A stretch of DNA of 64,000 nt from NCBI GenBank assembly GCA_039794565.1, contig JAUQVX010000001.1:124001-188000 (forward strand). Direction: 5' to 3'. This DNA comes from Gloeomargarita sp. SRBZ-1_bins_9. GTDB taxonomy: Bacteria; Cyanobacteriota; Cyanobacteriia; Gloeomargaritales; Gloeomargaritaceae. Made by a program: the position numbers and the translations under genes. Shown piece by piece: positions 23,820 through 29,801 of the stretch. How positions within the stretch are numbered: position 1 is the first letter of the stretch; every line of letters starts with the position of its first letter. A model generated the notes under the pieces. That model had not been told where the DNA came from. It saw only the letters and a list, made by a program, of their open reading frames with translations, and ran no database searches.

Positions 23820-23941
23820 ACCCCTACTCCCGTCGTCACCCAACTGTAAACAATTGTATCGGGTTTGGCAAAACCAGTACGACTTCGACCTGCTCGGCCC
23901 AGGGACTAGAATGGGAAATGTGTGCTCGGGATGGGAAAACA

Positions 23942-25408
23942 ATGGAACTGGTGACGGTGGCGACGCAGCCCCAGGACTGGACGGGGGACCTGCTATGTAT
24001 CGGTTTTTGGCAAGACAACGTAGCCTTGACGGGGGACCTGGCCGCCCTTGACGAACGCCTAGGGGGTGCCCTGCAGGACCTGCTGAACGAAACCGAATTC
24101 AAGGGCAAACCCGGCAGCCTACAAGTGACCCGTCTCCCCAGCGGCAGTCCGGTGAAAAAATTGGCCCTGGTGGGTCTAGGAAAACCCAACGGCCTAGAAC
24201 CCTATCGCCAGGCCGCCGCCGCCAGCGCCAAAGCCGCCAAAGCCCAAAAGGCCCGGCACATGGCCCTCTATGTCCCCCCCAGCGACCAACCCCCTGACGC
24301 CCTAGCGGCTGCCCTCACCGAAGGCATCCTACTGGCCCTGCACCAGGACAACCGCTTCAAATCCGACCCGGAAGACAAACCCCCGGTGCTAGAGCACATA
24401 GCGTTTTTGGCCATGGCCGACGGGCAAGCAGGGATCGAGCGGGCGCAAAAAGTCATCTCCGGCGTAATCCTGGCGCGGGAGTTGGTCAACGCCCCTGCCA
24501 GCCTGGTCACCCCCACCACCCTAGCAGAAACCGCCCTTTCTCTGGCCCAGACCTACGGCTTTAACGTCACCATCCTGGAGCGGGAAGACTGCCAGCGCCT
24601 AGGCATGGGGGCCTTTCTCGGCGTGGCCCAGGGGTCCGACACCCCCCCCAAATTCATCCATCTCACCTACACCCCCCCCGTCACCCCCCAAAAACGCCTG
24701 GCCATCATCGGCAAGGGACTCACCTTTGACTCCGGCGGCCTGAATCTCAAAACCCAGGGGGGCATCGAAACCATGAAAATGGACATGGCCGGGGCCGCCG
24801 CCGTACTGGGTTGTTTCAAAGTCCTGGGGCAATTGCAGCCGCCGGTGCAGGTACACGGGATCATTGCCGCCACCGAAAACATGATCAACGGCCATGCCCT
24901 GCATCCGGGGGACATCCTCACCGCCAGCAACGGCAAAACCATCGAAGTAAACAACACCGACGCCGAAGGCCGCCTCACCCTGGCCGACGCCCTGGTCTAT
25001 GCCGAAAAGCTGGAAGTCGATGCCATCGTGGACCTGGCCACCCTAACCGGCGCCTGCATCGTAGCCCTAGGGGACGACATCGCCGGTTTGTGGAGCACCA
25101 GCGACGAGCTAGCCAACGAACTGCTCCAGGCCTCCCAGGCCAGCGGCGAAAAAATCTGGCGGATGCCCCTGGAAGAAAAATACTTTGAGAGCCTGAAATC
25201 CCCCATTGCCGACATGAAAAATGCCGGGGGACGCAGCGCCGGTTCCATCACCGGGGCCTTATTTTTGAAGCAATTTGTGCAGAAAACCCCTTGGGCGCAT
25301 TTAGACGTCGCCGGACCGGTGTGGAGCGAAAAGGGCAACAGCTACAGCGGGCCGGGGGCCACGGGATTTGGGGTGCGCCTGCTGGTGCAATGGCTGTTGA
25401 ACCAGTAG
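23942..25408 (+). CDS. pepA: leucyl aminopeptidase (M17)
   Basis: PepA is a hexameric dinuclear-metal aminopeptidase; some homologues also bind DNA. The 488-aa protein has a divergent N-terminal macro-like domain and a C-terminal catalytic domain with '[15 protein letters not shown]' (Lys, Asp), '[13 protein letters not shown]', '[31 protein letters not shown]' in the signature '[10 protein letters not shown]', and '[12 protein letters not shown]'. ATG at 23942 ('MELVTVATQ') is preferred over 23918. The following gene begins 7 bases downstream. Confidence 0.94.
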
Positions 25409-25415
25409 GTGGGTC

Positions 25416-26432
25416 ATGCCCTGTGACGGCGCCATTATCGAGTTACACCCCAGCCCCGGGCGCAACCGTCTTATTCTGCACATCAACGGGGTGACCTCCA
25501 CCGCCGACAAGCAACAGCGGGACATCCAGGCCCTCCAGCGCATGGCCCCCGATGCCCACGTACGGGGCGTGCACAACGCCAGCCAGGACTGGCAAAGCGA
25601 CCTGCTTGAGAGCATTCTTGGACGTTCGGAACTCTGGCAGTACCAGCAGCCAAATGCCGCCGCCGCCCAACGCCTAGCCACCTACAGCCGCCTATTGCAG
25701 CAACTGCTCAACCAACCGGCCCTCCCCCCAGACGCCAACCTGCGGGACTATCTCCCAGAGGCTACCACCGGCAGCGGGCTTTTAGACGGAGACCTGTTGC
25801 GGCAGTTACCCTTCATCGCCCAACTCACCTGGCCCGACTTTTTGCAGTATCTCTACGGCGACTACCCGGCGGGGGCTTCCTGCGCGACCCTGCGACTGGC
25901 CTACGAACTGGCCCAGGGGATTCACGCCGGCGTACCGATTCTGGTGACCGCCCACAGCCAGGGGCTGATCATCACCGGCCTGGCCACCCACATCCTCACC
26001 CGCTTTTTTGGCGACTACACCCGCTGGCAGGAGCAGATTCACATCCTGGGCTACGGCCCCGTCATCTTGCTCGAGGAACTCCCTGCAGGGCTGCGGGGGC
26101 AAACCATCCTGATCCAGGACCGGCACGACCTGGTGGCCGAGACCTTCAGCAACATGCGCTACACGGATGTTTGGCACCTACTGCAAACCCAGGTTTGGCG
26201 CACCATCCAGCGTCTGCATCAACTGCCCCAACTGGCCCGCCCCGACAGCCACCACAGCGCCGGTTACTACCTGGGACTCCTAGACACCCCCGCCAGTCGC
26301 CGCGCCGGCCAACTCATGCAGTATTTCGTCAGTCAAGAATGGCATAGCAATCCCGTCATCCAGCGGTTTAGGGGGATTCGTTTTATCCTGGAGGATTTGG
26401 TTCCCGGTGGAGCACTGGCGGTGAAAAATTAG
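25416..26432 (+). CDS. conserved-looking hypothetical protein with alpha/beta-hydrolase-like nucleophile elbow
   Basis: I do not recognise this 338-aa protein. It has no signal peptide or membrane helix. The stretch 'VPILVTAHSQGLIITGLATHIL' contains A-H-S-Q-G, the form of a serine-hydrolase nucleophile elbow after a hydrophobic strand, and the N-terminal 'RNRLILHINGVTSTADKQQ' resembles the first strand and oxyanion loop of lipase-like proteins. A possible catalytic Asp lies in 'TILIQDRHDLVAETFSN' and a His after it. It is 7 bases after pepA, so is probably cotranscribed with it. Serine hydrolase activity is inference. Confidence 0.6.
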   Translation: MPCDGAIIELHPSPGRNRLILHINGVTSTADKQQRDIQALQRMAPDAHVRGVHNASQDWQSDLLESILGRSELWQYQQPNAAAAQRLATYSRLLQQLLNQPALPPDANLRDYLPEATTGSGLLDGDLLRQLPFIAQLTWPDFLQYLYGDYPAGASCATLRLAYELAQGIHAGVPILVTAHSQGLIITGLATHILTRFFGDYTRWQEQIHILGYGPVILLEELPAGLRGQTILIQDRHDLVAETFSNMRYTDVWHLLQTQVWRTIQRLHQLPQLARPDSHHSAGYYLGLLDTPASRRAGQLMQYFVSQEWHSNPVIQRFRGIRFILEDLVPGGALAVKN

Positions 26433-26495
26433 CCAAATTGCGGGATAACCGCCCTAAACGGTGTTTAGTTTTAGAAATTTTTATCAATCTCCCTG

Positions 26496-26524
26496 GTGAC
26501 AAGTCCGGCAGGGCTTGGTATATT
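26496..26524 (+). promoter_or_regulatory. sigma70-type promoter upstream of truB-kaiABC
   Basis: GTGACA (26496-26501), a 17-base spacer and TATATT (26519-26524) form a near-consensus promoter about 115 bases before truB. Transcription would start near 26531. Because truB, kaiA, kaiB and kaiC are nearly contiguous, this is the obvious promoter for the whole clock operon, unless the following hairpin terminates a short RNA. Confidence 0.65.
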
Positions 26525-26530
26525 AAAGTC

Positions 26531-26600
26531 AGTGTGTGTGAGGAGCGAACCAGGAAAGGCACCGAGACGAAACACGGCCAGTCGTCGGTGTCTTTTCTGC
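26531..26600 (+). ncRNA. structured leader or small RNA ahead of truB-kaiABC
   Basis: Downstream of the promoter the transcript would begin with a GU repeat and then GUGUGAGGAG (26536-26545), followed by an 11-bp stem: AAAGGCACCGA (26555-26565) pairs with TCGGTGTCTTT (26585-26595) with one G-U pair, loop of 19 bases, and then a T-rich tail TTTTCTGCTTTT. The stem plus T-run looks like a terminator, so this is either an approximately 70-80-nt sRNA or an attenuated 5' leader of truB-kaiABC. GUGUGAGGAG is complementary to the conserved core of the cyanobacterial sRNA Yfr1. No Rfam family is assigned by me. Confidence 0.45.
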
Positions 26601-26641
26601 TTTTATTGGTGGGTCCATCAGCGCGCGCATGGCACCCTTAG

Positions 26642-27532
26642 ATGGACGGTTTTCTGAATCTTTATAAACCGGCGGGTTGGACGTCCCACGACTGTGTGGC
26701 GAAAGTGCGACGGCTGTTGGGGGAGCGGCGGGTGGGGCATGGTGGCACCCTCGACCCTTGGGCGATGGGTGTGCTGCCAATTGCTATAGGGCGAGCGACG
26801 CGACTGGTGAATTTTCTGCCGCCGGAGAAGCGTTACCGGGCGCGGATCCGCTTTGGGGTGCAGACCACTACCGATGATTTGGCGGGAGAAATCGTAACGC
26901 AGCGGCCCGTGCCCGACCTGACCTTGGCGATGGTCCAGGGGATACTGCCGGAATTTGTGGGCGTGATTACCCAGAAACCCCCGGCCTTCAGTGCAGTTCA
27001 CATCCAAGGGCAACGGGCCTATGACCTAGCGCGCCAAGGACAGGCGGTGGAAATGCCAGATCGCCGTGTCGAGATTTACGACCTCACCGTGCGGGATTGG
27101 CAGCCGGGCGAATTTCCCGAGCTGACTCTGGAGGTCCACTGCGGCCGGGGTACCTATGTCCGGTCTCTGGCCAGGGACATTGGTCAGCGGCTTGGTCTAC
27201 CGGCGACCTTGAGTGCCTTGGAGCGTACCGCCAGTGGTGGGATGGAGCTGCAAGAGAGCCTGACCCTGGAGCAATGGTACACCCACCTGCAAACCCGTAC
27301 CTGGCAGCCAGACCCCCCTGACCGCTACCTCCAGCACCTACCAACCCTAACCTTAACCGGTCGCCAGGCGCGATTATGGTGCCACGGGCAAGCCCAGGAC
27401 GGTCCCGTGCAAGCATCCCCCTGGTGGCGGGTGTACGATGAACAAGGGCGTTTTTTAGGCATTGGTCAACAGATGGGCCCCGGGATGCTCAAGCCCCAGG
27501 TTGTTTTGGTCAATCCGGCGGCCAAATGCTAA
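26642..27532 (+). CDS. truB: tRNA pseudouridine(55) synthase TruB
   Basis: TruB makes pseudouridine 55 in the T-loop of tRNAs. The 296-aa protein has 'GFLNLYKPAGWTSHDCVAKVRR' in its core 'NLYKPAGWTSHD', the catalytic Asp in 'GHGGTLDPWAMGVLPIAIGRATR' (HGGTLDP), 'KPPAFSAVHIQGQRAYDLAR' and 'VHCGRGTYVRSLARDIG'. All active-site residues are present. No strong ribosome-binding site precedes the ATG. The 9-base gap to kaiA suggests that truB is the first gene of a truB-kaiABC operon. Confidence 0.96.
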   Translation: MDGFLNLYKPAGWTSHDCVAKVRRLLGERRVGHGGTLDPWAMGVLPIAIGRATRLVNFLPPEKRYRARIRFGVQTTTDDLAGEIVTQRPVPDLTLAMVQGILPEFVGVITQKPPAFSAVHIQGQRAYDLARQGQAVEMPDRRVEIYDLTVRDWQPGEFPELTLEVHCGRGTYVRSLARDIGQRLGLPATLSALERTASGGMELQESLTLEQWYTHLQTRTWQPDPPDRYLQHLPTLTLTGRQARLWCHGQAQDGPVQASPWWRVYDEQGRFLGIGQQMGPGMLKPQVVLVNPAAKC

Positions 27533-27541
27533 CTTGAACCT

Positions 27542-27922
27542 ATGGATACTGCTCCCCTCCCCTGTCGGAACCCGCAACAGTTTTGGGGACGTCTTTCGCA
27601 GGACCAACGGCAATACTGGCTGGACCGGCTCCGGTCATTGTATCACCAAATCATCCTGCTGTATTTTCGGGACGGCCCCCACCTAGCCGAGTGCATCGCC
27701 GAATTTACCCACCTGGCCTATGTCCTAAACCTACCGGTGGCGGAAATTGTGGGCATTCATGTGCAATTTATGGATGAGATCACCAAACAGTTAAAATTAG
27801 AGGGGCGCAGCGAGGAATTGGTGTTAGACTACCGGTTGACTCTGATTGATGTCATCGCCCACCTATGCGAGCGCTATCGCCAGGCCATGAATGCAACGCC
27901 GTCTGGGGGAGAAACCCGATGA
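27542..27922 (+). CDS. kaiA: circadian clock protein KaiA, short form (C-terminal domain only)
   Basis: KaiA stimulates KaiC autophosphorylation by binding its A-loop. This 126-aa protein corresponds to the four-helix C-terminal clock domain of Synechococcus elongatus KaiA (284 aa): '[13 protein letters not shown]', '[48 protein letters not shown]' contains the near-invariant '[12 protein letters not shown]' and '[15 protein letters not shown]'. The N-terminal pseudo-receiver domain, which senses redox/quinone input, is missing; there is no upstream in-frame coding for it because truB ends 9 bases earlier. Nostoc/Anabaena have comparably short KaiA. The stop overlaps the kaiB start by 4 bases. 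Confidence 0.93.
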
Positions 27923-28254
27923 ACCGCCGCACCAAGAAGGTTTATATTCTCAAGCTCTATGTGGCCGGCAACACACCCAACTCGGTGCGAGCGCTCGCCA
28001 CGTTGCGGGACATTTTAGCCACGGAATTTAAGGGGGTTTATACCCTGAAGGTCATTGACATCTTAGCCAACCCCCGTTTAGCGGAAGAAGATAAGATTTT
28101 GGCCACCCCCACCCTGGCGCGGATTTTGCCACCCCCCGTGCGGCGGATCATTGGCGACCTGTCCGACCGGGAAAAAGTTTTGATCGGCCTAGACCTCTTG
28201 TATGATGAATTGGTGGAAGAAGAGGAAGCGTCGGACCAGACAGGATCACTATGA
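27919..28254 (+). CDS. kaiB: circadian clock protein KaiB
   Basis: KaiB is the metamorphic thioredoxin-like clock protein that binds phosphorylated KaiC and sequesters KaiA. The 111-aa protein starts at ATG 27919 (within the kaiA stop); earlier in-frame codons lie inside kaiA. Conserved segments are '[21 protein letters not shown]', in its core '[12 protein letters not shown]', '[26 protein letters not shown]' and '[24 protein letters not shown]'. The acidic C-terminal tail is typical. ATGA overlap with kaiC gives complete coupling of the three clock genes. Confidence 0.96.
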
Positions 28255-29801
28255 CAGACAGCAGAACGACCCCGGTGGGGGTGCAAAAAATTCGCACGTT
28301 AATTGAGGGATTTGATGAGGTCAGTCACGGGGGATTACCGGCCGGGCGCTGCACCATCGTCAGTGGCACCTCCGGTACCGGAAAAACCATCTTCGCCCTG
28401 CAATTTCTCTACAACGGCATCATTCACTTTGATGAGCCGGGGATTTTTGTCACCTTTGAGGAGTCTCCGGAAGACATTATCAAAAATGCCCTCAGTTTTG
28501 GCTGGAACCTCCAGGCGTTGATCGATCAGGGGAAACTGTTTATCCTGGATGCTTCCCCGGAACCGGAAGGGCAACAAATCATTGGTGAATTTGACTTATC
28601 CGGTTTAATTGCCCGCATTGAATACGCCGTGGAAAAATTCAAGGCCAAACGGGTTTCGATAGATTCGGTAACGGCTATTTTCCAGCAATTTAGCGCCAAT
28701 AATGGGGCCTCGTTGATCCGTAATCAGTTGTTTATCCTGGTCTCGCGCTTGAAAAAACTGCAAGTGACTACCGTCATGACCACGGAGCGGATTGATGAAT
28801 ACGGTCCGATTGCCCGCTTTGATGTGGAGGAATTTGTCTCGGACAATGTGGTGATTCTGCGCAATGTGCTGGAGATGGAACGGCGTCACCGCACGATTGA
28901 AATCCTCAAATTGCGCGGCACGACCCACATGAAGGGGGAATATCCGTTTACGATTACTAACGATGGGTTGAGTATTTTCCCGCTGGGGGCGATGCAGTTG
29001 ACCCAACGGTCCTCCAATGTGCGGGTGTCGTCTGGCATTCCCAAGCTGGACGAAATGTGCGGCGGTGGCTTTTTCAAAGACTCTATCATCCTGGCGACGG
29101 GGGCCACGGGTACGGGCAAGACGTTGCTGGTGAGCCGTTTTTTGGAACATGCCTGTCAGCGGGGGGAACGGGCGTTGCTGTTTGCCTATGAGGAATCCCG
29201 CTCCCAACTGGCCCGCAATGCCTCCTCCTGGGGGGTGGATTTTGAGCGCTACGAACGCCAGGGGTTACTGAAAATCATCTGTGCCTATCCGGAATCCACC
29301 GGGCTGGAGGACCACTTGCAGATCATTCGCTCGGAAATTGCCAGTTTTCGCCCCTCCTGCTTTGCCATTGATTCCCTGTCGGCCCTGGCGCGGGGGGTGA
29401 GCAACAATGCTTTCCGCCAATTTGTGATCGGGGTGACGGGGTTTGCCAAACAGCAGGAAATTACAGGGTTTTTCACCAACACCCTGGACCAATTCCTGGG
29501 TTTGCATTCCATTACCGAGTCCCATATCTCCACCATCACGGATACCATCCTGTTGCTGCAATATGTGGAGATTCGCGGGGAAATTTCCCGGGCGATCAAT
29601 GTGTTTAAGATGCGGGGGTCCTGGCATGACAAGGGCATCCGGGAGTACGTGATTACGGACAAAGGGCCGGAAATCCGGGATTCCTTCCGCAACCTGGAGC
29701 GGATCATCAGCGGGTCGCCGACGCGGGTGGCGGTAGATGAAAAGGCGGAACTGTCACGCATCATGCGGGGGATGCAAAATCCGGAGAACCCGAGTCATTA
29801 G
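28251..29801 (+). CDS. kaiC: circadian clock ATPase/autokinase KaiC
   Basis: KaiC is the hexameric core of the oscillator. The 516-aa protein has two RecA-like domains. CI: Walker A GTSGTGKT (39-46), catalytic Glu-Glu at 70-71 ('VTFEES'). CII: Walker A GATGTGKT (284-291), 'FAYEES', and the phosphorylation site '[12 protein letters not shown]' with Ser427 and Thr428 equivalent to S431/T432 of S. elongatus and Thr422 equivalent to T426. The A-loop and tail ('[19 protein letters not shown]') that bind KaiA are conserved. All residues needed for a functional clock are therefore present. Its 3' end overlaps the convergent cobU gene by 41 bases. Confidence 0.98.

Follow-up and report, generated by a model that had tools for sequence, protein, structure and literature searches.

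A Yfr2-family small RNA gene lies directly upstream of the truB-kaiABC clock operon in one clade of Gloeomargarita

The window, i.e., the whole 64-kb stretch of DNA analysed here, comes from the Gloeomargarita genome G000 and carries the circadian clock genes kaiA, kaiB and kaiC behind truB. The four genes are packed or overlapping, and only ~40 nt separate truB from the end of a short structured RNA element, which in turn follows pepA and a conserved gene, p338. The features at this junction, in window coordinates, are the following:

23918-25408: pepA, which precedes p338
25416-26432, plus strand: p338, a conserved 338-aa protein with no Pfam match, between pepA and yfr2 in 7/7 genus genomes
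26473-26488, plus strand: AGAAATTTTTATCAAT block 5' of the -35 box (sequences compared by eye)
26496-26524, plus strand: yfr2 promoter-like sequence, GTGACA-17 nt-TATATT, with the TGACA conserved
26531-26607, plus strand: Yfr2 (Cyano-1) small RNA gene, its 5' end placed from the -10 box
26536-26545, plus strand: GTGTGAGGAG, the 5' motif of Yfr2, complementary to the Yfr1 core
26551-26599, plus strand: Yfr2 stem of 18 bp with one bulge and a 12-nt GAAACACGGCCA loop, a putative terminator
26613-26628, plus strand: GTCCATCAGCGCGCGC, complement to the Yfr2 5' motif just 5' of truB, a candidate masking element in a read-through mRNA
26642-27532, plus strand: truB, tRNA pseudouridine synthase, first gene of the operon 3' of yfr2
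27542-27922, plus strand: kaiA, short form (126 aa, C-terminal domain)
27919-28254, plus strand: kaiB
28251-29801, plus strand: kaiC

The initial annotation regarded the element before truB as the leader of the clock operon mRNA, with a standalone small RNA as the alternative, and it is this alternative that the evidence bears out. A focused Rfam scan matched 26532-26601 to the Cyano-1 model (RF01701) over its full length (model positions 1-69), with a score of 40.9 bits and an E value of 4.7e-6. The gathering score of this model is 41, and since the match falls 0.1 bit short of it, a scan of the whole 64-kb window at the gathering threshold returned no match; the orthologous copies in three other genomes of the genus (G002, G003 and G005) score over the cut-off, that of G002 in a repeat scan too. 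Cyano-1 corresponds to the Yfr2 family motif (PMC8400943). The family is defined in PMC2662882 by 8-13 unpaired nt at the 5' end and by a 12-nt loop with a bulge at -4 relative to it. Each of these traits is present in the window RNA: in its predicted fold the 5' GUGUGAGGAG is unpaired, GAAACA lies within the 12-nt loop (26569-26580), and the bulge sits four positions from the loop. The stem pairs 26551-26568 with 26581-26599 and is directly followed by a T-run (26600-26607, CTTTTATT). Thus, the strong hairpin with a T-run that had been noted here is real, but its stem is 18 bp long rather than the 11 bp (26555-26596) first proposed. A scan for terminator-like hairpins, which considers loops of 3-8 nt only, makes no call on this 12-nt-loop structure.

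The likeness to known members of the family (Yfr2-Yfr5 of Prochlorococcus and Yfr2a-c of Synechocystis) extends from the 5' GUGUGAGGAG, the GAAACA loop, the bulge and the complementarity to Yfr1 to the promoter-like sequence, the terminator-like stem, the presence of two copies per genome and the variable neighbours. According to the primers listed in PMC2662882, GTGTGTGAGGAG and GTCGAAACAAGGAA are found in Synechocystis Yfr2a and Yfr2c as well. What sets the window copy apart is its score just under the Rfam cut-off, its clock operon neighbour and its sequence subtype, CGAACCAG...ACCGAGACGAAACACGGCCAGUCGUCGGU, which also occurs in several other families. Yfr2 small RNAs occur in nearly all cyanobacteria.

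Conservation follows the RNA and not its surroundings. Between G000 and G001, 74 of 76 Yfr2 bases are identical, both mismatches falling at the final two positions of the comparison, as against 45/73 and 21/36 in the flanking spacers and 73% in truB. Within the family, GTGTGAGGAGCGAACCAG is present without a mismatch in all eight genomes and is invariant across 11 yfr2 sequences; in these same sequences the 18 stem pairs are 97% paired, with six pairs changed on both sides versus 0-4 in slid controls. Closely similar Yfr2-type RNAs were found in many other cyanobacterial families. These observations also dispose of the reading that the element is a chance 10-mer beside an ordinary terminator, without function. 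By count alone GTGTGAGGAG is only mildly unusual (a single copy in the 64-kb window versus 0.08 expected, such that ~8% of shuffled windows would be expected to contain it), and it is the Rfam match and the conservation that lift it above chance; with the covariance match, the covariation, the near-perfect conservation and the presence across the phylum all against it, we regard a chance origin as refuted and practically without prospect.

Each genome of the genus carries a second yfr2 copy, so that the truB-linked copy is not the only one in G000. In G000, G001 and G006 this second copy was detected by pattern search alone, the Rfam model giving no match at E 0.001; Rfam thus undercounts Yfr2 copies in these genomes. 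The second copy of G000 (G000:C3:214176-214193; L147) has an altered loop, GAAACTTGGATA.

We next turn to the partner of this RNA. As had been noted from the window, GTGTGAGGAG at 26536-26545 is an exact complement to 10 of the 11 bases of the Yfr1 core, and a search with the Rfam model (RF01116) located a Yfr1 gene in G000 (G000:C4:167857-167922) with its core, ACTCCTCACAC, intact. Plain Yfr1 duplex energies were uninformative because they ignore internal structure, and the gain upon cofolding was used in their place: for Yfr1 and Yfr2 it is a predicted -26.1 kcal/mol, which 1 of 3456 window segments equals. Yfr1 was recovered in pull-downs with Prochlorococcus Yfr2, and repression by Yfr1 is relieved by Yfr2 in an E. 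coli reporter assay (PMC6778093). The Yfr1 gene, the cofolding gain and this published pairing together suggest that the complementarity reflects the known Yfr1-Yfr2 interaction. The Yfr1 complement recognized earlier is genuine, but it was assigned to the wrong RNA: it is the family-defining 5' motif of the small RNA Yfr2. For G000, we infer the pairing from the conserved sequence and the predicted duplex, the experiments being those in Prochlorococcus and the E. coli reporter. In the proposed mechanism, the unpaired 5' GUGUGAGGAG of Yfr2 would pair with the CUCCUCACAC core of Yfr1, and abundant Yfr2 would act in trans, withdrawing Yfr1 from its mRNA targets. The known Yfr1 targets PMM1119/PMM1121 and ppa likewise have a stretch close to the mRNA 5' end that is complementary to the Yfr1 core; here, unlike in those mRNAs, the complement lies within a separate structured small RNA, away from the start codon of a conserved target.

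Comparison of the gene neighbourhood across the genus further separates the RNA from the clock genes. This yfr2 copy has pepA-p338 upstream in every one of the seven genus genomes, but truB-kaiABC directly behind it in only three of them (G000, G001 and G006); in G002-G005 truB-kaiABC has another location, and other sequences follow yfr2. In a TruB-KaiB-KaiC tree the three fused genomes form one clade (UFBoot 97), with the unfused genus genomes as its sister group and G007, also unfused, as the outgroup. The fusion is therefore most simply derived, i.e., truB-kaiABC would have arrived directly behind a long-established yfr2 in the common ancestor of the three fused genomes. A set of 80 kaiC loci, drawn almost entirely from other cyanobacteria, contained no yfr2-like site, and truB adjoins kai at only one of them, that of Gloeomargaritales cyanobacterium VI4D9, the nearest named relative found (this is the G002 genome, which is unfused). 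Among the loci examined, the linkage of truB to kaiABC appears confined to this family. G021 was considered as a further fused case and rejected, as its yfr2 lies 1.4 kb from truB with two opposite-strand genes in between.

These comparisons bear directly on the reading in which the element is mainly the truB-kaiABC leader, making the clock mRNA a direct target of Yfr1 or the hairpin an attenuator set by Yfr1. In its favour, Yfr1 exists, the complementarity is exact, no other promoter is visible, and, given read-through, the mRNA would start with a Yfr1-binding motif. Yet the motif is retained wherever this type of Yfr2 is found, copies unlinked to kai included: in G002-G005 and at further loci the same RNA and motif stand apart from truB-kaiABC, so the proposal of the clock mRNA as a conserved Yfr1 target does not hold. 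The co-occurrence of the motif with kai expected in relatives was likewise limited to 3/7 genus genomes, and the motif is absent before kai in the outgroup G007 and at the 80 kaiC loci; therefore, there is no conserved signal of the clock mRNA as a Yfr1 target. Moreover, predicted folding of the read-through leader has the motif paired, at an opening cost of 6-15 kcal/mol, as opposed to 1.2-1.5 kcal/mol in the free small RNA (1.2 for the window Yfr2). As to the attenuator, the Yfr1 site precedes the terminator stem and shares no bases with it, and therefore no anti-terminator is evident. We accordingly hold the leader reading to be very unlikely: the region 26531-26607 is a Yfr2 small RNA gene and not chiefly an mRNA leader. 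The RNA itself is known, and what is new is its lineage-specific setting before truB-kaiABC. A suspected clock-RNA regulation thus becomes a named, widely conserved small RNA with a known partner.

How, then, is the clock operon of the fused clade transcribed? The promoter proposed for the element, GTGACA-17-TATATT, is present at 26496-26524, with its TGACA retained in all 15 yfr2 copies compared within the family. It is the sole sigma-70-like match between 26300 and 28400, a region in which shuffles yield 1.1 by chance. No second match that could serve truB-kaiABC was found there by this consensus scan, to which a weak promoter within truB would be invisible. With no visible truB promoter in the fused clade, truB-kaiABC is therefore probably transcribed in part by read-through: most transcripts would end at the Yfr2 terminator, and by analogy with Synechocystis the fraction passing it would make the truB-kaiABC mRNA. 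Synechocystis offers a strong precedent: its Yfr2b and Yfr2c start at the same sites as the mRNAs downstream of them and are counted among the actuatons (PMC2662882, PMC5386190). The Synechocystis pairs Yfr2b-slr0199 and Yfr2c-sll1477 resemble the present locus in that yfr2 lies directly upstream in sense, the gene has no visible promoter and the fusion is limited to some strains; they differ in that here the read-through is presumed, the cargo is truB-kaiABC, and the Yfr2 5' motif has a complement in the spacer. By definition, an actuaton consists of a small RNA plus a downstream gene without a start site of its own.

A competing explanation takes the junction as mere neighbourhood, with yfr2 ending at its terminator and the unrelated truB-kaiABC transcribed either from a cryptic promoter within truB or close to it, or from 5' of pepA. 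That the genes behind this yfr2 copy vary between lineages, as they would if rearrangements settled by chance, speaks for it. Against it stand the gap of only ~40 nt between Yfr2 and truB, the retention of the arrangement in G000 and in G001/G006 although their truB genes are 27% apart in DNA sequence, the lack of a second promoter match between 26300 and 28400, and the read-through of Synechocystis Yfr2b and Yfr2c in the same layout (PMC2662882). We consider this explanation unlikely. The preferred reading, which is very likely, is that 26531-26607 is the gene for a Yfr2-family (Cyano-1) small RNA of ~75 nt, equipped with a promoter and terminator of its own, and that truB-kaiABC is transcribed partly by read-through from it. 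A lineage-specific effect on truB-kaiABC via this read-through is possible.

One further feature distinguishes the fused genomes. A complement to the Yfr2 5' motif precedes truB only where truB-kaiABC follows yfr2. The duplex between spacer and motif has p values of 0.0135 in G000, 0.0005 in G001 and 0.002 in G006 (z -2.6 and -3.8), while the lowest among 12 unfused yfr2 copies is 0.03; the spacer complement is equalled by 0.7% and 0.1% of random window segments. In the G000 leader the candidate masking helix would pair GUGUGAGGAG with GCGCGCGC. The higher opening cost of the motif in the leader suggests that a read-through mRNA may hide its Yfr1 site, or that Yfr1 may open the leader. We treat this masking as a lead only, because it involves two lineages and a post-hoc comparison, and because the GCGCGC part of the complement is shared by descent. 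In G001 and G006 an extended TruB start would be in frame with this GCGCGC element, and in G000 a stop codon intervenes, which rules out that it is simply conserved coding sequence.

The most far-reaching version of the read-through model is that yfr2-truB-kaiABC of the fused clade forms a functional actuaton, with the yfr2 promoter driving the clock operon and the 5' motif free in the small RNA and masked in the mRNA, thereby coupling the Yfr1/Yfr2 network to clock expression. As a whole we deem it quite improbable. A light-stimulated Yfr2a promoter has been published for Synechocystis; if read-through is true, the kai genes of the fused clade would acquire the light responsiveness of a yfr2 promoter, a simple rewiring of the clock operon. 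A literature search on Yfr2 and circadian regulation returned no paper linking the two by title or abstract. The single aspect that merits testing is the lineage-specific junction of yfr2 and the clock operon, and the sister lineages offer a clean natural comparison, sharing this yfr2 locus but differing in whether the clock operon follows it.

Additional observations concern the surroundings of the junction. The sequence immediately 3' of this yfr2 copy (L132-L135) differs in every lineage, which suggests a point of frequent rearrangement. The kaiA of G003 (L141:6170-7625) matches in two pieces ~1.1 kb apart, in an insertion-like pattern. On the upstream side, the AGAAATTTTTATCAAT block is common to the promoters of the yfr2 copy behind pepA-p338 in 7/7 genus genomes; this AGAAATTNTTATCAAT-like block at 26473-26488 is absent from the promoter of the second yfr2 copy and is possibly the site of a regulator.
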